The notes under the pieces were generated by a model that searched no databases, had not been told where the DNA came from, and saw only the letters and a program-made list of their open reading frames with translations. From Saprospiraceae bacterium (GTDB lineage: Bacteria; Bacteroidota; Bacteroidia; Chitinophagales; JAHQVX01): a DNA stretch of 36,255 bases. The position numbers and the translations under genes were made by a program. Where the stretch lies: the NCBI GenBank assembly GCA_019634125.1, contig JAHQVX010000144.1, positions 1 to 36,255 on the forward strand, in the 5' to 3' direction. Within the stretch, counting starts at the first letter, position 1. Each line of letters opens with the position of its first letter. This document shows positions 1,945-36,255 of this stretch, one piece after another.

Positions 1945-2832
1945 CTAACCAATTACTAATGCGGTAAAGACTACCGGTAAATATAAAAAAGAAGCATACA
2001 TCAGCTGCTTCGCATGAACATCATCTTTGTTCCTGAGTAAACGAATGGCAGGAACCATATAAAACACCGCAGCAATAGCACAAACTAAAGCAACAGTTAG
2101 TGAAATCATTTCAAAATAGAAGGGTACAAATGCCAAGAAAGCTAAAGCCAAACAGTAAATTATTGACTGGATAGGCATGTTATTCGTCTTCTCGCCATCG
2201 GGTAGTAACTTATAACCTGCTTTTTTGTAATCTTCAAAGGCCAACCAAGCAATGGCCCAGAAATGCGGGAATTGCCAAAGGAATTGAAAACTAAACAAGA
2301 CCCAAGCTTCAAAAGTTAAACCTCCTGTAGCTGCTGCCCAACCAATCATTGGAGGTAGAGCACCAGGAATTGCTCCAATAAACACAGCTAAAGGAGAGAA
2401 ACGCTTCATTGGTGTGTAAATGAAGGCATAAACAAACAAAGACAAAGCACCTAATAGTGAAGCAATAGGATTAAAAAACATCCACAAAATCACTAAACCG
2501 AGTAATCCAGAAATACCTGCGATCAACCAGGCTTCCATAACACCTACTCGGCCATTTGGAATAGGTCGGTTTTGAGTTCGCTTCATCAGCTTATCAAAAT
2601 CACGTTCCAATATCTGATTAATGGTATTGGATGACATGGTGACTAAAAAACCACCCAGGAATAACCAAACCAAACTAGAAGCAGCTGCAGTACCCGCAAA
2701 GATATACCCCATAATTGCTGAAAACACTACGATGAGGTTTAGGCGCATTTTAGCCAATACCATGTAGTCTTTTAGCTTAGCGGCTAAAAGGGAAGCAATG
2801 GATATATTTTGATATGTCTGTTTATTCGACAT
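1945..2832 (-). CDS. cyoE: Protoheme IX farnesyltransferase (haem O synthase)
   Basis: A 295-residue polytopic UbiA-family prenyltransferase. It adds a farnesyl group to haem B to make haem O, the precursor of the haem A used by the oxidase. The prenyl-diphosphate/Mg site is seen at residues 72-90, with D78, D80, R85 and R89 in the DFDKLMKRTQNRP segment. The start codon lies inside the end of ctaD (11-bp overlap), which suggests coupled translation of the oxidase core and its cofactor enzyme. Also called ctaB. No haem A synthase (CtaA) gene is visible in this window. Confidence 0.93.
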   Translation of the reverse strand: MSNKQTYQNISIASLLAAKLKDYMVLAKMRLNLIVVFSAIMGYIFAGTAAASSLVWLFLGGFLVTMSSNTINQILERDFDKLMKRTQNRPIPNGRVGVMEAWLIAGISGLLGLVILWMFFNPIASLLGALSLFVYAFIYTPMKRFSPLAVFIGAIPGALPPMIGWAAATGGLTFEAWVLFSFQFLWQFPHFWAIAWLAFEDYKKAGYKLLPDGEKTNNMPIQSIIYCLALAFLAFVPFYFEMISLTVALVCAIAAVFYMVPAIRLLRNKDDVHAKQLMYASFLYLPVVFTALVIG

Positions 2833-4681
2833 GTTTTACTTCAGCATTGGTTGATGAAGAAGTTGCAGTTACTTGTTCTACAGTATGCTCTTGTCCTACA
2901 GGAACTGTTTGAGGCATGTACTCATACCCATCTTTCCCATACTCATAAGCACCTCTATGTACTTCAGGAATCGCTCCAGGCCAGTTTCCGTGGATTGGCT
3001 CGATAGACGCCGTCCACTCGAGTGAGTTTGATCTCCAAGGGTTTTTCTCCTTCATCTTACGTCCTCTCCAAATGCTATTGAAGAAGTTGTAGATGAATAA
3101 AAACTGAGCAAATACTGAGATAATGGCACCAATCGTAATGATCTTATTCACATCATCGAACTGGCTAGAGAATTCAAACGCATCAAATCTATAGTAACGT
3201 CTAGGTACACCACCTAGTCCTAACCAGTGCATCGGTCCGAAAACCAAGTAAGCACCGAGGAAAGTGATAAAGAAATGGATATAACCCAGTGTTCTATTCA
3301 TGTATCTTGAATACATCTTAGGGAACCAGTGATAAACCCCTGCAAATGTTCCGAAGAAGGCAGCAACACCCATTACAATGTGGAAGTGAGCTACTACGAA
3401 ATAAGTATCATGCAGGTGAAGATCTAGGAAGTTCGTCCCTAAGTAAATTCCAGTAAGACCACCACTAATGAAAAGCGACACAAAACCCAATGCAAATAAC
3501 ATCGCAGGAGTGAGTCGAATATTTCCTTTCCAGAGGGTGGTTAACCAGTTGAAGACCTTTATGGCTGATGGAACAGCAATCAATAACGTAAAGATGGTGA
3601 ACACAACTCCCAGTGAAGGGTTCATTCCAGTAACGAACATGTGGTGTGCCCAAACTAAGAAACCAATAATGGTAATAGCTAGGATGGAATAAACCATGGC
3701 GCTATACCCGAAAATTGGCTTACGAGAATTTGTGGATAGGATATGTGATACAATACCCATCGCCGGAAGAATGATAATATATACTTCTGGGTGCCCTAAG
3801 AACCAAAATAAGTGTTGGAATAATATAGGGTTACCACCTACGTTAGGCATGACTTCTCCCGCACTAGAAATAATATCGGATAAGAAGAAGCTTGTACCAA
3901 AGTTTCGATCGAATAACATTAATACTCCTGCTGCTAAGAGCACTGGGAATGAAAGTAATCCGATAATAGCAGTAAAAAAGAACGCCCAAACAGTAAGTGG
4001 CATACGCTTGAACGACATTCCTTTCGTACGCATGTTGATCACAGTCGAAATATAGTTCAGCCCACCGAGTAATACGGAGATAATGAATAAAGAAATAGAG
4101 ATTAACCAGTAGTCTACCCCAGCTTGAGATCCTTTCGCAGCCCATGGTAATGCGTTAAGTGGTGGATAGGCAGTCCAACCACCACTAGCAGCTCCAGTAG
4201 GGAGAAAGAAAGAAAGTAGCATTACAAATCCGGACAAAAAGAAGAACCAGTATGACAGCATGTTCATGAATGGAGAAGCCATATCACGAGCGCCTAACTG
4301 AAGTGGAATAAGTAAGTTACTAAAGGTTCCACTTAATCCAGCGGTTAATACGAAGAATACCAAGATGGTTCCGTGCATGGTCACCAATTGGTAATAAAAG
4401 TCTGCGGAAATTTGGCCACCTTCTGCCCATTTACCAAATAAACGTTCCAAGAATGGGAATGTTTGGTCTGGGTAAGCCAGTTGAATACGGAATAAAACAG
4501 ACATTAAACCAGCAATAACTGCCCAAATAATTCCTGTTATTAGGAATTGTTTAGCGATCATTTTATGATCTTGACTGAAGACGTACTTTGTGATAAAAGA
4601 CTCTTCGTGGTGGTGATCATGATGGTGATCATCATGTACATGATGATCGGTGTGTACTTCGTGCTCGGTATGCGTTTGCAT
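2822..4681 (-). CDS. ctaD: Cytochrome c oxidase subunit I (aa3 type)
   Basis: A 619-residue haem-copper oxidase catalytic subunit with 12 or more helices. It holds haem a, haem a3 and CuB and reduces oxygen while pumping protons. Near residue 297 is GHPEVY, giving a CuB histidine, the cross-linked tyrosine and the helix-VI glutamate of A1-type oxidases. WAHHMFVTGMNP follows with further CuB histidines, and HDTYFVVAHFHIVMG near residue 427 holds the haem a3 and a ligands. The N-terminus is unusual: 12 histidines occur within the first 26 residues, before the first helix. It starts 15 bp after ctaC and overlaps cyoE by 11 bp. The start was chosen because this His-rich segment is continuous with the frame and the next ATG is far inside. 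Confidence 0.97.
   Translation of the reverse strand: MQTHTEHEVHTDHHVHDDHHHDHHHEESFITKYVFSQDHKMIAKQFLITGIIWAVIAGLMSVLFRIQLAYPDQTFPFLERLFGKWAEGGQISADFYYQLVTMHGTILVFFVLTAGLSGTFSNLLIPLQLGARDMASPFMNMLSYWFFFLSGFVMLLSFFLPTGAASGGWTAYPPLNALPWAAKGSQAGVDYWLISISLFIISVLLGGLNYISTVINMRTKGMSFKRMPLTVWAFFFTAIIGLLSFPVLLAAGVLMLFDRNFGTSFFLSDIISSAGEVMPNVGGNPILFQHLFWFLGHPEVYIIILPAMGIVSHILSTNSRKPIFGYSAMVYSILAITIIGFLVWAHHMFVTGMNPSLGVVFTIFTLLIAVPSAIKVFNWLTTLWKGNIRLTPAMLFALGFVSLFISGGLTGIYLGTNFLDLHLHDTYFVVAHFHIVMGVAAFFGTFAGVYHWFPKMYSRYMNRTLGYIHFFITFLGAYLVFGPMHWLGLGGVPRRYYRFDAFEFSSQFDDVNKIITIGAIISVFAQFLFIYNFFNSIWRGRKMKEKNPWRSNSLEWTASIEPIHGNWPGAIPEVHRGAYEYGKDGYEYMPQTVPVGQEHTVEQVTATSSSTNAEVKHVE
4627..4648. repeat. 22-bp perfect palindrome inside ctaD
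   Basis: An 11-bp arm, GATCATCATGT, is followed directly by its exact reverse complement, with no spacer. It lies in the codons for the His/Asp-rich N-terminus of CtaD. Alternating GAT, CAT and ATC triplets tend to create such symmetry, so low-complexity coding is a sufficient explanation, although the perfect match over 22 bp is notable. Confidence 0.8.
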
Positions 4682-9663: not shown

Positions 9664-12600
9664 TTAATGTCCGTTATCGTGTTCTTCTGTTGAGCTATGA
9701 TCAGCACCATGCGCTGCATCTGCACCATGGCTATCGCCATGATCATCACCATGATCTCCTCCGTGCCCTTTATCGTGGCTAATGTGTTCCTCTGAGAAGT
9801 GCCCTTCATCTAATTTATCGAAAGGTGCTATTGCTGAATTCGTAATCTTTGTCATATAGGATACAGAAGGCAATACGTGTGTTTCTTCTAACACGTGGTA
9901 CATCCGTTTCTCCGCATTCAACTTAGATAGTTCACTGTCTGGATTATTCATATCGCCAAAGACAATAGCATTGGTAGGACACGCACTCTGACAAGCCGTT
10001 TTAATCGCACTTGGGTCCATCGCTACGCCATTAATCTTCGCATCGAGCTTCTGCTCTTGGATACGCTGAACACAGAATGAACATTTCTCAATAACTCCTC
10101 TAGAACGTACGGTAACATCCGGGTTCAAGATCATTCGAGTGAGGTCATTACGCATCGCTTCGGACACGTGTTCTTTCTTGCCGTGCATGTGGTCGTTCTT
10201 AGGACCCCATGAATCAGCACCCCAGTAATCGAACCAGTTGAAACGACGTACTTTGTACGGACAGTTGTTCGCACAGTATCTTGTACCAATACAACGGTTA
10301 TAGGCCATTTGATTCAGCCCTTCTGAACTGTGGTTGGTGGCGTTTACTGGACAAACATTTTCACAAGGCGCGTTATCACACATCTGACACATCATTGGCA
10401 TAAATACCACAGATGGGTTCTCCAATTCTTTGTCGCCATCAATATCTGTTGCATAATAGCGGTCAATTCGCAACCAGTGCATTTCACGGCCGTTGGCTAC
10501 TTCTTCTTTCCCTACAATAGGAATATTGTTCTCGATATTACAGGATACTACACATGCACCACAACCTGTACAAGAGTTGAGATCGATGTTCATTCCCCAG
10601 TGGTGACCAGGAAAGTCACGGTCAGGATAAAGTGATATATCCTCTACCAGTTTTCTATAGGCTTCGGAAACATCTTTCTCGTAATTTCCCGCGTTTCGTT
10701 TCTCTTTATAGTCGGCTAATGTAGCTTCTTTCACAACAGGTCGATCATCGTCGATAGTGTGGTGAAGTTGTGTTTGTGCTACCCGCGTCATTTTACCAGT
10801 ACCTTCAACAGTAGCAGTTCCCGTGTATGAGAAACCAGCGCCATTGGCTGCAGCTAATTTAAAGCCACTTTCACCTGTTTCATTTCCAGTTAATCCTTCA
10901 ATAGTTCGCCCATAACCAACTGGAATAGCAACTACACCTGTTGGAACACCTGGCTGAACTACTAATGGTAATTCAATACTCTTCCCATTTGCGGTTACAC
11001 GAACAACATGGTGATTTTTCTTACCTGGCTTGATGTTCCGGTCTTTGAAGAGGCCTAATTCTTTTGCGTATTTTGAAGACACATATGCACAGTTGCCCCA
11101 AGTAACTTTCGATACTGGGTCTGGCAATTCTTGCATGTAAGGGTTGCGCGCATGTTCTCCCGCACCCATTTTATCTTCAAAGAGGACTAATTCAACACCA
11201 GAAACAGCAGGAGCAGAATAAGAAATTCCACTAACTGTGGCATTTCCAGCACTTACTGACACGGCTGGAACTGCGGCTTGGTGCATAAATCCATTTCGAA
11301 TCACCTCATCCCAATCTGCTTTACCTGCCCATTCTTCTTGAAGTACATCGTAGAATGATTGCTCAGAATCAGCTAATGCTAATAGCGAGTCTCCAAACTG
11401 ACGTGTATCAAATAAAGGCTGGATAGCAGGTTGTTGGAAGCTGAAACTTCCAGAATAAGGTTCTGCATCGCCCCAACTTTCTAAGTAATGATTATCAGGG
11501 AGAATATGCGAAGCCAATGCGTTGGTCTCATTCGGCTGACAGTCGAATGAGATCACTGTTGCTTTACCTGCACCAGTAGCAAATTCTTCTGCCAATGGCG
11601 AATTGTAAGCTGGGTTCGCATTGTAGGTTAATAATGTAGAAACACTACCGCTGTTTAAGTCGTTGACTAACTGTATAAAGTCTTCATCAACGCCTTGTCG
11701 CGTGTTAAGTGTTCGATTGAAATCAATGGTTGAACCAATATTGCCCAACATGGCATTGATGGCATTGGTTACGAGTTGCGATTCTTCGTCGTGCGCACCA
11801 CAAAGAACAACAGATTTTCCGCGGGCAGCAACTAAATCATCTGCCATTCGCTCTAACTCTCCGTTGCTAAGATCTTCTGAAGGCACTCCAGAAATAGCGC
11901 TTCCTCCTACTTTACCAGCTAACAGGTTGTATAATTGGAAGAGGGCCGCTTTTTGTTGTGAAGGTTTCACAGGAACACGAACATCAGCATTGGCTCCAGA
12001 AAGCGACATATTACTTTCTACTTGGTAATGCTTAGATAATGTTGGGTTCTCTGGGTTGATCTTACGGTTGGCCACATAACCTTGGTTCATGGTAATGTGA
12101 TCGAGCCATCCGCAAAGGAAATCGGCAGCAAAGCTGACGATTACATCTGCATTTTCTAATTTATAAGAAGGGATGGCTTTGTGTCCGAATGACTTCTCGT
12201 TAGCCGTGATCATAGCTGAAACAGACATAGCATCGTAGGTCACATGCTCTACGTTGTATTTATCTGCTAAGCCTTGAATCGTTTTCTTTAAAGAAGGAGA
12301 AATGATGGAAGAAGTCAGAAGTACTTTTCTACCTGCACCATTCAATGCTGCTTTCACGTCGGCATCTGCAGTATCCCAAGTGGCGGCTTCGCCATTAATC
12401 ATTGGGCTTTTGAAGCGGTGGAAATCGTAGAGAGAAAGCACAGATGCTTGCATAGCAGAAGTAGAACCTCCTTTAGTAAGTGGAGATTCTGGGTTCCCAT
12501 CTACTTTAATTGGGCGTCCTTCACGAGTTTTCACCAAAATACTTCCAAACTCGCGTCCATCAAAGAAGGTAGAGGCGTAGTAAGAAGCTTTACCTGGGGT

Positions 12601-12855
12601 AACAGCTTCTGGCTTGAAGGTATAGGGAATGGCTTTTTTCACTGGGATTTTACAGCTGGCCGCCAGGGCAGCTGCTGAAATACTAAATCCCATCACTTTT
12701 AAGAAGTCTCTTCGTGAAGTGTCTTCCTTCTGTAAATTGTCATTGAAGTAATCAAGAGCAGGTGCTTCTTGAGGAAACTCATCTTTAGTGACCACAGGAA
12801 GCTGGATATTCATATCCAGCTCTTCAATTCCTTTAACATATTTTTTATTGCTCAT
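9664..12855 (-). CDS. actB: Alternative complex III iron-sulfur subunit ActB (molybdopterin-fold/ferredoxin fusion)
   Basis: A 1063-residue periplasmic subunit. A twin-arginine motif, SRRDFLKVMG, lies at residues 47-56 and is followed by a hydrophobic stretch ending AALAASC, so C68 may be lipid-modified. Residues of about 80-700 match the molybdopterin oxidoreductase fold; ActB proteins of this family carry no Mo cofactor. At about 750-960 are four cysteine groups: CTGCGACVVSC, CQMCDNAPCENVCP, CIGTRYCANNCP and CSFCVQ with CQSACP. In the family these hold three [4Fe-4S] and one [3Fe-4S] clusters. The last 45 residues contain 11 histidines. The ATG at 12855 is preferred over the TTG one codon upstream. 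It carries electrons from quinol to the haems of ActA. Confidence 0.95.
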   Translation of the reverse strand: MSNKKYVKGIEELDMNIQLPVVTKDEFPQEAPALDYFNDNLQKEDTSRRDFLKVMGFSISAAALAASCKIPVKKAIPYTFKPEAVTPGKASYYASTFFDGREFGSILVKTREGRPIKVDGNPESPLTKGGSTSAMQASVLSLYDFHRFKSPMINGEAATWDTADADVKAALNGAGRKVLLTSSIISPSLKKTIQGLADKYNVEHVTYDAMSVSAMITANEKSFGHKAIPSYKLENADVIVSFAADFLCGWLDHITMNQGYVANRKINPENPTLSKHYQVESNMSLSGANADVRVPVKPSQQKAALFQLYNLLAGKVGGSAISGVPSEDLSNGELERMADDLVAARGKSVVLCGAHDEESQLVTNAINAMLGNIGSTIDFNRTLNTRQGVDEDFIQLVNDLNSGSVSTLLTYNANPAYNSPLAEEFATGAGKATVISFDCQPNETNALASHILPDNHYLESWGDAEPYSGSFSFQQPAIQPLFDTRQFGDSLLALADSEQSFYDVLQEEWAGKADWDEVIRNGFMHQAAVPAVSVSAGNATVSGISYSAPAVSGVELVLFEDKMGAGEHARNPYMQELPDPVSKVTWGNCAYVSSKYAKELGLFKDRNIKPGKKNHHVVRVTANGKSIELPLVVQPGVPTGVVAIPVGYGRTIEGLTGNETGESGFKLAAANGAGFSYTGTATVEGTGKMTRVAQTQLHHTIDDDRPVVKEATLADYKEKRNAGNYEKDVSEAYRKLVEDISLYPDRDFPGHHWGMNIDLNSCTGCGACVVSCNIENNIPIVGKEEVANGREMHWLRIDRYYATDIDGDKELENPSVVFMPMMCQMCDNAPCENVCPVNATNHSSEGLNQMAYNRCIGTRYCANNCPYKVRRFNWFDYWGADSWGPKNDHMHGKKEHVSEAMRNDLTRMILNPDVTVRSRGVIEKCSFCVQRIQEQKLDAKINGVAMDPSAIKTACQSACPTNAIVFGDMNNPDSELSKLNAEKRMYHVLEETHVLPSVSYMTKITNSAIAPFDKLDEGHFSEEHISHDKGHGGDHGDDHGDSHGADAAHGADHSSTEEHDNGH

Positions 12856-12882
12856 CAAACGAGGTTTGAATTCTTAATTAGA

Positions 12883-15568: not shown

Positions 15569-15595
15569 AAACCCCCAACCAAAGGTTGGGGGTTT
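15569..15595. terminator. Intrinsic terminator between convergent genes
   Basis: A perfect 12-bp stem (AAACCCCCAACC, AAA loop, GGTTGGGGGTTT) starts 28 bp after the lipoprotein stop codon and lies just beyond the divIC stop codon at 15602. The T-run on the plus strand and A-run on the other side allow it to work in both directions. It is nearly the same as the hairpin at 17376-17404. Confidence 0.88.
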
Positions 15596-15997: not shown

Positions 15998-16022
15998 AAA
16001 AAACCCTCGGCTTTGCCGAGGG
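15998..16022 (-). terminator. Intrinsic terminator after enolase
   Basis: On the minus strand an 8-bp GC-rich stem (CCCTCGGC pairing with GCCGAGGG, loop of three) is followed by a run of six T. It lies about 36 bp after the enolase stop codon and before divIC, so it should end enolase transcription. Confidence 0.88.
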
Positions 16023-16057: not shown

Positions 16058-17413
<1,356 letters not shown>

Positions 17414-17425
17414 TTATACACAGAT

Positions 17426-17971
17426 CTATTCTTCTTCTGTGCCTTTGATTTTTTCGCCAGCATCTTCTACGGCTTCTTCAGCTTCAGCTTTTGCTTGTGC
17501 TGCAGTAGTAGCTGCTGTAGCTACAGCAGCTTCGGCACCTGCTTTCTTCTTACCACCTCGTCTGCTTCTTCTAGTCTTAGATTTCTTAGCAGAATCGTCT
17601 TTAACGTATACCTCGTTGAAATCAACTAGCTCAATAAATGCCATTTCAGCAGCATCGCCAGAACGAACACCTGTTTTGATGATACGTACGTATCCACCAG
17701 GACGATCCCCTACTTTAGGAGCTACAGTAGCGAATAATTCAGATACTGCTTCTTTACTCTGCAAATACTTAAATGCCATTCGTCGTGAATGTGTAGAGTC
17801 TTCTTTTCCTCTTGTAATGATCGGCTCAACAAAAACGCGTAATGCTTTAGCTTTAGCTACTGTCGTTCTGATACGCTTATGCATAATCAGTTGGCTAGCC
17901 ATATTTGTAAGCAATGCTTTTCTGTGCCCTGCCTTTCTACTTAAATGATTAACTTTTTTCCCGTGTCTCAT
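17426..17971 (-). CDS. rplQ: 50S ribosomal protein L17 with Ala/Glu-rich tail
   Basis: A 181-residue bL17. Residues 1 to about 120 are the conserved protein ([20 protein letters not shown] at the start), which lies near the peptide exit tunnel. Residues from about 125 on are an added tail: a basic strip ([15 protein letters not shown]) and then an Ala-rich acidic end ([16 protein letters not shown]). Typical L17 is about 120-130 residues; long low-complexity tails are common in Bacteroidota. It is the last gene of the cluster, 12 bp after rpoA. Confidence 0.96.
17510..17531. repeat. 22-bp perfect palindrome in the rplQ tail
   Basis: AGCTGCTGTAG is followed directly by its exact reverse complement with no spacer. 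It lies in codons for the Ala/Thr-rich tail of L17, where GCT and GCA codons favour this symmetry. Confidence 0.8.
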
Positions 17972-20498: not shown

Positions 20499-20720
20499 CT
20501 AAGATTTGTATCTATAAGTGATTCGTCCTCTCGACAAATCGTAAGGAGATAATTCCACTGCAACTTTATCGCCAGGTAAAATTCGGATGTAATTCATCCT
20601 CATTTTGCCTGAGATGTGCGCAATTATCTCATGATCATTCTCCAATTTTACACGGAACATAGCATTGGAAAGTGCCTCTGTTATTGTTCCATCCTGTTTT
20701 ATTAATCCTTGTTTACCCAT
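20499..20720 (-). CDS. infA: Translation initiation factor IF-1
   Basis: A 73-residue OB-fold protein that binds the A site of the 30S subunit during initiation. [36 protein letters not shown] and the end [12 protein letters not shown] are typical. Its start overlaps the end of map by 8 bp, and rpmJ follows after 4 bp. The order map-infA-rpmJ-rpsM is a usual join between spc and alpha operons. Confidence 0.97.
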
Positions 20721-21555
20721 CCTGAAAATTGGTCTGCAAATATCTAACTTTTTCTTTAAAATCCTTAATGTTTGGGTTACTTTTTATTGACTCAAAAATC
20801 ACCTCAAAATCAGAGAGGATATCGGGTCCATTTTTCGTAACTGCGACGGTGTGTTCGAAGTGTGCAGACGGCTTGCCGTCTGCAGTTATTATCGTCCAAC
20901 CATCATTCAACTGCTTCACCTTTCGAGATCCTGCATTAATCATTGGCTCAATAGCAATCACCAAACCTTCTTTGATCTTAGGTCCTCTACCCCGCTTTCC
21001 ATAATTCGGAACATCCGGGCTCTCATGTAAAGCACTTCCTACTCCATGTCCAACAAGCTCACGAACCACACCATAACCACGGTCAATTTCAGTGTACTTC
21101 TGGATCGCATAACTTACATCTCCAATCCGATTTCCAATTCGTGCACAATCAATACCGACATATAAAGAATCAATCGTGTCAATGAGTAGATCCCAAACTT
21201 CATCTGTTTGATCACCAACCGGGTAAGTAAATGCAGAATCTCCAAAATAACCTTCCCATTCTACACCACAATCAATAGAGAGAATATCTCCTTCTTTAAT
21301 TTCACGATCACTCGGAAAACCATGAACTATTTGTTCATTTTCTGAAATACATAAAGTGGCGGGAAAGCCGCCATAACCTTTAAAGGCCGGCTTAGCCCCT
21401 TCATGATCTCGAATAAAAGTTTCCGCAATTACATCCAACGACTTAGTCGTAATCCCTGGTCGAATATGCTTGGCTACTTCAGCATGAGTTTTAGCAACAA
21501 GTAAAGAACTTTTTCTGATGAGCTCTATCTCATCTTGTGTTTTCAGTTTAATCAT
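20713..21555 (-). CDS. map: Methionine aminopeptidase, type I
   Basis: A 280-residue enzyme that removes the initiator methionine from new proteins. The dinuclear metal site is visible as the two aspartates in [20 protein letters not shown], the His in [18 protein letters not shown], and glutamates in [11 protein letters not shown] and [11 protein letters not shown]. The final 30 or so residues after [14 protein letters not shown] form a charged extension beyond the catalytic fold, and its codons overlap the infA start by 8 bp. Its start overlaps the secY stop by one base (TAATG). Confidence 0.96.
20863..20884. repeat. Perfect inverted repeat (10-bp arms, TT centre) inside map
   Basis: TGCAGACGGC, then TT, then GCCGTCTGCA. 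It covers codons for the TADGKPSAH segment next to a metal-binding glutamate. There is no T-run after it, so it is not a terminator. The centre (AA on the coding strand) matches the hairpins in eno and the reductase. Confidence 0.8.
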
Positions 21556-26630: not shown

Positions 26631-26999
26631 TTATAATACCTCTGGTGCAAGTGAAATAATCTTCATGTAGTCTCCTTCACGCAACTCTCTGGCTACAGGG
26701 CCAAAAATACGAGTACCTTTAGGTTCTCCTGATTCGTTAAGTAGAACACATGCGTTGTCATCAAAACGGATGTAAGAACCATCTTTACGCTTGATCTCTT
26801 TTCGAGTTCGAACAACAACTGCTTTCGAAACAGTTCCTTTCTTCACGTTTCCAGATGGTAAAGCATCCTTAACAGTTACAACGATTTGATCTCCGATAGA
26901 AGCGTACCTTCTCCTAGAGCCTCCGAGTACTTTGATACAAAGTACTTCTTTAGCACCGCTGTTATCAGCAACTTTTAGTCTTGATTCCTGTTGTACCAT
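26631..26999 (-). CDS. rplN: 50S ribosomal protein L14
   Basis: A 122-residue uL14 at the subunit interface, where it forms bridges with 16S r[23 protein letters not shown] and [20 protein letters not shown] are diagnostic. Its ATG overlaps the rpsQ stop codon by one base (TAATG), and rplX follows after 1 bp. Confidence 0.97.
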
Positions 27000-35172: not shown

Positions 35173-35216
35173 TACCTCGATAAGTTTTTTACACATGATT
35201 TTTGGTTCGGCTGGAA

Positions 35217-35224
35217 TATGTTTG
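35217..35224 (+). promoter_or_regulatory. Candidate -7 promoter element for the reductase gene
   Basis: The plus strand reads TATGTTTG, a full match to TAnnTTTG, 33 bp before the ATG at 35258. A TTTG lies upstream at 35201-35204 but the spacer (12 bp) is too short for a usual -33 element. The implied leader is about 27 nt. Confidence 0.5.
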
Positions 35225-35257
35225 GTTTGCTATTAACTTCGCTTCGAAAATTCATTC

Positions 35258-36255
35258 ATGAGCTTATTTAAGAAACTATTCAAAAAAGCTTCTACAGACG
35301 ATACGAGTGGTGGCTTCATTTCGCTTACAATAAATCATATTCGTCGCGAAACCGCCAAGGCGGTTTCGCTGCAGTTCGATAAACCCACAGGTTGGGATTT
35401 CTTACCCGGTCAATACCTCACCTTTGAAGCTACGATTGATGGCTCAGTGGAACGCCGTGCCTATTCATTGAGTTCTCTGCCGTCGGATGACTTCCTTCAG
35501 GTGACGGTGAAAGAGACTCCTACTGGCTTCTTCAGTAAATATGTGAACCAAACGCTACAAGAAGGCGACAGTATATTGGTAATGCCCCCTACGGGCAAAT
35601 TCACCCACAATGTCGACCCATCGGCCCACAACGCCTACGTAGCCGCTGCCGGAGGCAGCGGCATCACGCCCATCTTCTCCATCTTGAAAAGTGTACTCGA
35701 ACAGGAAGCCAACAGCACTTTCACATTAATCTATGGAAACCGCACGCAGGAAGACATCATTTTCGCTGCAGCCATCCAGGACCTCCAAGCCAAACATGGA
35801 GCGCGCTTCAAAGTGCTACACGTTTTATCGGACGAAGAACGAAGCGACTTCACAGAATACTTCGGTTTTGTAACGATGGATATGATTAAAGAAATGGCGG
35901 AACGCCATTTCTCTATTGCCGAAACACATAGTTTCTTCCTATGTGGTCCGGGCCCGATGATCGACACGGTGAAAGGCAGCCTTAAAACACTGGGTGCCAG
36001 CGCCGACCAGATCAAAACGGAGCTGTTTACAGCTCCGTTAAACAACGATGCGAAACCTAAAAAAGAAGCAGACACAATCACTACAGATGCCCAAGTGAAA
36101 ATTACTTATGGCAAGGAATCGACCACTGTATATTATACCGACAAAAAGAAAACCGTACTAGACATGGCCCTCGATAACGGCATTAAAGTCCCATTTTCCT
36201 GCCTAAATGGCGTTTGTTCTACCTGTAGTGCTAAACTCGTTAATGGAACAGTGGC
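35258..36255 (+). CDS. PaaE-like flavin/[2Fe-2S] NAD(P)H oxidoreductase (3' end outside window)
   Basis: The first 332 codons of a three-domain ferredoxin reductase. Residues of about 18-115 form the FAD domain (PGQYLTFEA, then RRAYSLSS, the flavin-binding R-x-Y-S). About 115-250 form the NAD(P)H domain (AAAGGSGITPIFSIL, then FFLCGPGPMIDTV). After a Lys-rich linker a plant-type [2Fe-2S] domain starts, with three ligands visible in CLNGVCSTCSA; the fourth lies beyond the edge. PaaE passes electrons from NADPH to phenylacetyl-CoA epoxygenase, but no paaABCD genes are seen, so the real partner is unknown. The gene points away from rpsL. Its coding sequence has four perfect hairpins. Confidence 0.9.
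   Translation, partial: MSLFKKLFKKASTDDTSGGFISLTINHIRRETAKAVSLQFDKPTGWDFLPGQYLTFEATIDGSVERRAYSLSSLPSDDFLQVTVKETPTGFFSKYVNQTLQEGDSILVMPPTGKFTHNVDPSAHNAYVAAAGGSGITPIFSILKSVLEQEANSTFTLIYGNRTQEDIIFAAAIQDLQAKHGARFKVLHVLSDEERSDFTEYFGFVTMDMIKEMAERHFSIAETHSFFLCGPGPMIDTVKGSLKTLGASADQIKTELFTAPLNNDAKPKKEADTITTDAQVKITYGKESTTVYYTDKKKTVLDMALDNGIKVPFSCLNGVCSTCSAKLVNGTV
35346..35369. repeat. Perfect inverted repeat 1 in the reductase gene (11-bp arms, AA centre)
   Basis: GCGAAACCGCC, then AA, then GGCGGTTTCGC, starting about 88 nt after the start codon. It could form a stable hairpin in the early mRNA. No T-run follows. Confidence 0.85.
35642..35662. repeat. Perfect inverted repeat 2 in the reductase gene (9-bp arms, GGA centre)
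   Basis: GCCGCTGCC, then GGA, then GGCAGCGGC. It covers the codons of the conserved AAAGGSG nucleotide-binding motif. The arms are identical to those of the repeat in eno at 16977-16996. Confidence 0.85.
35890..35912. repeat. Perfect inverted repeat 3 in the reductase gene (10-bp arms, GAA centre)
   Basis: AGAAATGGCG, then GAA, then CGCCATTTCT, in codons for a weakly conserved helix (KEMAERHFS). No T-run follows. Confidence 0.85.
36016..36039. repeat. Perfect inverted repeat 4 in the reductase gene (11-bp arms, TT centre)
   Basis: AACGGAGCTGT, then TT, then ACAGCTCCGTT, in codons for KTELFTAPL just before the linker to the iron-sulfur domain. Confidence 0.85.

Follow-up and report, generated by a model that had tools for sequence, protein, structure and literature searches.

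Four perfect hairpins in a reductase gene

The window (here meaning the whole 36,255-nt stretch of DNA that was analysed) closes with a gene for a PaaE-like ferredoxin reductase, recognised by a match to the NCBIfam profile TIGR02160 which, at E=1.3e-81, lies under the curated cut-off. Within this gene are four perfect inverted repeats (Table 1), with positions, arm lengths and spacers all as described in an earlier, sequence-only reading of the same DNA. As single-stranded DNA all four fold, at -9.8 to -11.9 kcal/mol, and the second encodes AAAGGSG in place of the LFAGGSG seen in relatives. None is followed by a terminator-like T-run, which bears out the earlier view that these are not ordinary terminators, and no site combining a stem with a T-run is present in positions 35200-36255. 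Similarly, the window yields no Rfam matches above the gathering score, and a scan of genome contigs found no orthologues of the reductase. The contention that four such repeats exceed expectation also survives codon shuffling: synonymous-codon shuffles of the gene average 0.065 such repeats and none of the 400 reached four, whilst shuffles of codon order average 0.02.

Table 1. Reductase gene and perfect hairpins within genes of the window
Feature	Position	Strand	Arms (bp)	Spacer	DNA fold (kcal/mol)	z	Context
ORF	35258-36253	+					PaaE-like NAD(P)H/flavin/[2Fe-2S] ferredoxin reductase; 3' end past contig end; carries four hairpins
Hairpin	35346-35369		11	AA	-11.9	-5.4	Reductase gene; folded, 10-bp stem and 4-nt loop
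Hairpin	35642-35662		9	GGA	-11.8		Reductase gene; within conserved AGGSGITP motif
Hairpin	35890-35912		10	GAA	-9.8	-7.1	Reductase gene
Hairpin	36016-36039		11	TT	-10.6	-8.1	Reductase gene; folded, 10-bp stem and 4-nt loop
Hairpin	4627-4648		11	0 nt			Within ORF 2822-4681(-)
Hairpin	12800-12821		10	2 nt			Within ORF 9664-12858(-)
Hairpin	16977-16996		9	2 nt			Within ORF 16058-17386(-)
Hairpin	17510-17531		11	0 nt			Within ORF 17426-17971(-)
Hairpin	20863-20884		10	2 nt			Within ORF 20713-21555(-)
Hairpin	26926-26946		9	3 nt			Within ORF 26631-26999(-)

Abundance across the genome

The sequence-only reading had treated the hairpins as a peculiarity of the reductase gene, and in this it was mistaken. 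Six further hairpins of the same class lie within other genes of the window, the last of which encodes EVLCIKVL, compared with EVLCIRVL in relatives (80 % identical, 65 relatives). More broadly, 51 stretches were sampled, together comprising 692 kb, or 31 %, of this 2.2-Mb draft Bacteroidota genome, in which every ORF of at least 120 aa was mechanically taken to be a gene (574 genes, 627 kb coding). Taking as a hairpin any perfect inverted repeat with arms of at least 9 bp and a spacer of no more than 4 nt, the sampled coding sequence contains 279 examples, compared to the 13.4 expected from synonymous-codon shuffles; these shuffles leave dinucleotides across codon borders unfixed, but relatives provide a second control. 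The excess is thus approximately 20-fold (Poisson tail far below 1e-200), with a density of 0.445 per kb and 50 of the 51 stretches positive; a first sample of 404 kb had given 175 hairpins against 12.4 expected. By extrapolation, the whole 2.2-Mb genome holds about 900 hairpins in genes.

The hairpins are distributed near-uniformly over the contigs, at around one per 2.2 kb, and are spread through genes of all kinds. The number of genes with zero, one, two, three and four hairpins is 373, 133, 59, 8 and 1, respectively, which looks like the outcome of a mildly clustered random process, such that the notion of one special gene can be rejected. Given this high background, the grouping of four hairpins in the reductase gene is a mild outlier in the upper tail of the genome distribution: amongst 574 genes, at least four hairpins would be expected 0.17 times in a gene of no more than 1.1 kb, and 2.9 times in a gene of any length. 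Gaps of less than 400 bp between neighbouring hairpins number 57, compared to 40.5±5.3 expected, and this mild clustering speaks against a regularly spaced chromosome marker. A role as terminators or attenuators is likewise rejected, as only 3.6 % of hairpins are followed by at least five T in 8 nt, against a background of 5.0 %. Finally, all 279 hairpin sequences are distinct and therefore do not constitute a repeat family.

With regard to intergenic regions, the spacers between divergent genes contain 10 hairpins in 12.5 kb (0.8 per kb, a small count that includes some terminator-like examples), compared with 0.46 per kb in genes. The density of perfect repeats between convergent genes is 6.1 per kb, as opposed to 0.8 between divergent genes. 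As a separate observation, G+C-rich perfect hairpins with flanking A and T runs occur in the window at 15569-15595, 16004-16022 and 17376-17404, and in other sampled stretches (L006, 6949-6981; L009, 3407-3439; L017, 15043-15075). Many of these have a 3-nt loop set within a CTCGGC/GCCGAG core, and from their sequence look like a stereotyped bidirectional terminator.

Geometry, loops and perfection

The hairpins within genes conform to a narrow geometry. A spacer of 3 nt is dominant, with 64, 57, 29 and 15 examples for arms of 9, 10, 11 and 12 bp, respectively, against 1.0, 0.8, 0.4 and 0.2 expected; spacers of 0 and 2 nt represent the equivalent structure with a 4-nt loop, and spacers of at least 5 nt show no enrichment in the sampled coding sequence. 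Arms range from 9 to 13 bp, and those beyond 13 bp are almost absent. At the lower end, arms of 8 bp with a 3-nt spacer are observed 20 times against 7.0 expected, giving a sharp bound at 9. Symmetry ends abruptly, in that pairing past the end of the stem (0.19-0.32) equals chance, and the G+C content of the stem declines with its length, from 0.65 at an arm of 9 bp to 0.51 at 12 bp.

The loops are similarly restricted. For the 166 hairpins with a 3-nt spacer, 119 are closed by a C-G pair, and the loop is GAA/TTC in 59 cases, AAA/TTT in 37 and GGA/TCC in 25. Relative to hairpins with short stems, GAA loops are enriched 6-fold and TTC loops 5-fold. Mini-hairpins of the d(GCGAAGC) type are exceptionally stable in DNA. 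The two orientations of the commonest loop are nearly equal in number (34 GAA, 25 TTC), and 114 of 180 hairpins carry their purine-type loop on the coding strand, which does not differ from the baseline of 0.587 (p=0.23), indicating that the hairpins are strand-neutral. In rRNA, by contrast, GAAA loops outnumber their complement 99-fold (PMC8794818).

Perfection of the stem is a further feature. Stems of 10 bp are observed 92 times in perfect form against 1.95 expected, and 46 times with one mismatch against some 22 expected; stems of this length with a single G-T pair show no excess (5 versus 4.65 expected).

Consequences for the encoded proteins

Relative to the reading frame, 86, 55 and 25 hairpins are centred on codon positions 2, 1 and 3, respectively, compared to 62, 50 and 53 in shuffles (p=5e-6). 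The avoided phase is that which pairs third positions with third positions, thereby leaving the least freedom, and is the costliest to the protein. Comparison with homologues reveals that the hairpin regions align essentially ungapped, with a gap fraction of 0.5 %, so that insertion, like a repeat family, is rejected as their source. The arms also encode conserved motifs, such as EAAAKLRL of ClpB (91 % identity) and RETAKAVSL. On the basis of the ungapped alignments and the avoidance of the costliest phase, the hairpins are neither insertions nor, probably, assembly errors.

Identity to homologues is 0.45 in hairpin regions and 0.49 in their flanks, which is not a significant difference; in five well-aligned genes it averages 0.46 in hairpin codons and 0.565 elsewhere. 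The left and right arms do not differ as to which is the altered one (p=0.73), and it is accordingly rejected that the same arm is always altered, a pattern which one-way copying bias might produce. In terms of composition, the hairpin codons of this genome are enriched for alanine (2.1-fold), arginine (1.5-fold) and proline, depleted for Tyr, Asp, Met and Asn, and have a GC3 of 0.52, compared to 0.41 elsewhere. The share of alanine is 18.5 % in hairpin codons and 10.4 % in the corresponding columns of homologues, with both values being 8.1 % outside of hairpins. These alignments suggest that hairpin formation has changed some residues, the gain of alanine being the clearest case, with the alanine excess in part an ascertainment effect.

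Distribution amongst relatives

The genome is the sole member of its family amongst the relatives listed, with the nearest homologues at 30-68 % protein identity and the best fusA matches (75-78 % identity) belonging to Saprospiraceae. Hairpin counts for 20 genomes from other families of the order (6 versus 9.0 expected), a further 20 stretches of the order (9 versus 7.7) and 20 stretches of the phylum (12 versus 13) are near chance, and 80 fusA loci give 37 versus 28.8. In total, Bacteroidota other than the genome itself have 63 hairpins versus 48 expected (130 loci of at least 8 kb, 2.09 Mb coding), and a 50-kb stretch of E. coli K-12 has none versus 0.8. Thus, as the sampled Bacteroidota and E. 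coli K-12 lie near chance, the hairpin excess is lineage-specific within this sample of other families of the order, the phylum and E. coli K-12. At the same sites in relatives, pairing is modestly raised (mean z 1.2). It had been proposed that symmetry missing from all close relatives would tell against the four reductase hairpins; run against the other families of the order, to which this comparison is limited, the check does find symmetry to be absent, and a lineage-specific gain is the natural reading of that absence.

One stretch from another genome of the phylum (G114) initially resembles a second case, with 5 hairpins in 14.8 kb. This stretch, L221, contains the hairpins CGATCCTGC-TCT-GCAGGATCG and (C)GTTCCATTGC-AATG-GCAATGGAAC(G), paired in two genes (11551-11603 and 16966-17063). 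Because these two sequences recur in two genes, the enrichment is that of a repeat element rather than of the trait described here; judged by its sequence, G114 carries a dispersed palindromic repeat element overlapping ORFs.

Known suppressors of template switching, ExoVII and SbcCD, were also considered. XseA (ExoVII) was not found, and SbcD had no match above the cut-off, in the 83 %-complete genome, but the same holds for most of the hairpin-free relatives, so that loss of SbcCD or ExoVII is rejected as a sufficient cause. A MutS gene is present, truncated at a contig end, and the REP-type Y1 transposases (one match above the cut-off and one weak) show nothing unusual.

Origin of the hairpins

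The best explanation, to which we assign a probability of roughly 0.55, is that the hairpins are the footprints of a lineage-specific and very active process of fold-back template switching (quasipalindrome correction), filtered by selection on proteins. During DNA synthesis, the nascent strand would fold back at an imperfect inverted repeat to form a tight, stable loop, of 3-4 nt and typically C-G-closed around GAA, AAA or GGA. The folded strand would then copy its own other arm for some ten bases before rejoining the proper template, such that a perfect hairpin of 9-13 bp takes the place of the quasi-palindrome. If such conversion is fast relative to point mutation, then perfect hairpins would come to outnumber stems with one mismatch. 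Protein selection would remove most conversions, sparing those whose codon phase makes the changes largely silent; some amino acids would be altered nonetheless, most clearly through gains of alanine. A missing or altered repair or replication function may lie behind the process.

Template switching in E. coli is known to make quasipalindromic repeats perfect (PMC7202029), and a preference for short, stable loops is seen among template-switch events, which are enriched for GNRA and 4-nt loops (PMC8794818). A process of this kind predicts perfection with few intermediates, tight loops, abruptly ending tracts of around ten bases, neutrality between strands, a protein filter and presence throughout just one genome, and provides the best fit amongst the explanations weighed here. 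Some points count against it. The lower bound is sharp, and a protein that measures length would give the same step from 8 to 9 bp; the density in divergent spacers is not clearly above that in coding sequence, where a purely neutral process ought to leave fewer hairpins; and enrichment is lacking for spacers of at least 5 nt, even though larger loops are open to template switching.

The sequence-only reading had put forward three causes, and whilst template switching fares best of these, a role for DNA structure emerges as the chief rival. Here, a protein or enzyme would read any perfect stem of at least 9 bp with a 3-4-nt loop, whatever its sequence, and the approximately 900 sites would be kept by selection and might act in replication priming, nucleoid organisation or self-marking, with the hairpin either extruded or single-stranded. 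This is a possibility of some substance, albeit a clearly less likely one. The narrow geometry, with its sharp lower bound at 9 bp and limit near 12-13 bp, would suit such an element, as would the near-even coverage of the contigs, the restriction to perfect pairing and a stem G+C content that falls with length in the manner of a stability threshold. Conversely, the sites are mildly clustered rather than regular, strand-neutral and located in genes of all kinds, no candidate recognition protein was found, and the selection required at hundreds of sites would be demanding, and strong enough to change amino acids. Slightly more doubtful is the reading of the hairpins (stem 9-13 bp, loop 3-4 nt) as a geometry-specific, sequence-independent structural code, kept by dedicated writing or reading machinery; the machinery would be either an enzyme actively turning near-palindromes into hairpins or a protein dependent on them, and would take precedence over codon choice and some amino acids. 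If it is function that preserves the hairpins, they would constitute a new kind of DNA signal, chromosome-wide and set by shape instead of sequence.

The third cause, selection for secondary structure in mRNA (affecting stability, translational pausing or RNase sites), is largely contradicted and now very unlikely. Widespread weak selection for structure in bacterial coding mRNA has been reported (Katz and Burge 2003, as cited in PMC4060949), but enrichment here is limited to perfect Watson-Crick stems with abrupt ends, G-T (that is, G-U) pairs are not in excess, and the orientation of the loops is independent of the coding strand; given the latter two observations, mRNA structure is not what is kept. 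An artefact of assembly, amplification or library construction, in which fold-back chimeras render near-palindromes perfect in the consensus, is comparably improbable. The genome looks like a draft assembly from a metagenome (146 contigs), known here from its consensus and not from reads, and fold-back synthesis does occur in vitro; against this, reading frames are intact and alignments ungapped, and an artefact striking at random would be neutral to codon phase and would corrupt one arm, so that it is unlikely in view of the phase filter and of both arms encoding conserved residues. Chance, by which perfect 9-mers arise at about 0.02 per kb, or ordinary codon or composition bias in one gene, is refuted by a twenty-fold excess and by codon shuffles and other Bacteroidota at chance level.

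If fold-back template switching is indeed the source, this lineage would be a natural hypermutator for one specific and normally rare class of mutation, and a bacterial chromosome could be read for the rate at which fold-back copying occurs, along with its loop rules and tract length. It would also show the extent to which mutation bias rewrites protein sequences, and provide a genome in which to seek the responsible defect in repair or replication.

Comparison with known systems

Short palindromes dispersed in bacterial chromosomes are familiar from REP/REPIN sequences and from the Rickettsia palindromic elements, the latter of which can sit in genes. Such elements either represent multiple copies of a single sequence family or have been inserted, unlike the hairpins described here, which are all distinct and align with homologues without gaps. 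A closer parallel is quasipalindrome mutation in E. coli, in which an intramolecular template switch at a stalled fork likewise turns imperfect repeats into perfect ones; this is known from single hotspots and reporters (thyA, and the lacZ QP reporters; PMC7202029), and not as a chromosome-wide footprint. In prokaryotic genes generally, short inverted repeats (6-9 bp) show a small excess, which has been attributed to template-switch correction of imperfect repeats (Ladoukakis and Eyre-Walker 2008, as described in PMC4060949). As far as that description extends, the two cases have in common that perfect short inverted repeats exceed expectation in bacterial genes, but differ in that the present excess is some 20-fold, involves arms of at least 9 bp and is found in one lineage of the sample. 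Extreme over-representation in coding sequence has been reported for Cyanobacterium, Thermoanaerobacter, Allivibrio and Azobacteroides (PMC4060949), genera that lie outside of the present comparison.

The palindromes in mitochondrial coding sequence of Nematomorpha offer a close likeness. These show all-or-nothing perfection with no excess of imperfect repeats, favour phase 1 whilst avoiding phase 3 (in which third positions are tied) for long repeats, and have arms that encode conserved residues; an origin by conversion or template switching has been proposed (PMC6649704). Both systems thus feature many perfect repeats within genes, all-or-nothing perfection and a bias against the phase that ties third positions. 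They differ in that Nematomorpha palindromes occupy a small mitochondrial genome, with arms of up to 284 bp, whereas the present hairpins are found on a bacterial chromosome at around 0.45 per kb, with arms of 9-13 bp, spacers of 0-4 nt and preferred stable loops. Should template switching prove correct, the genome would hold a bacterial counterpart to these unexplained mitochondrial palindromes. In relation to earlier reports, it is the size of the excess, and its confinement to one lineage in the sample, that is unusual.
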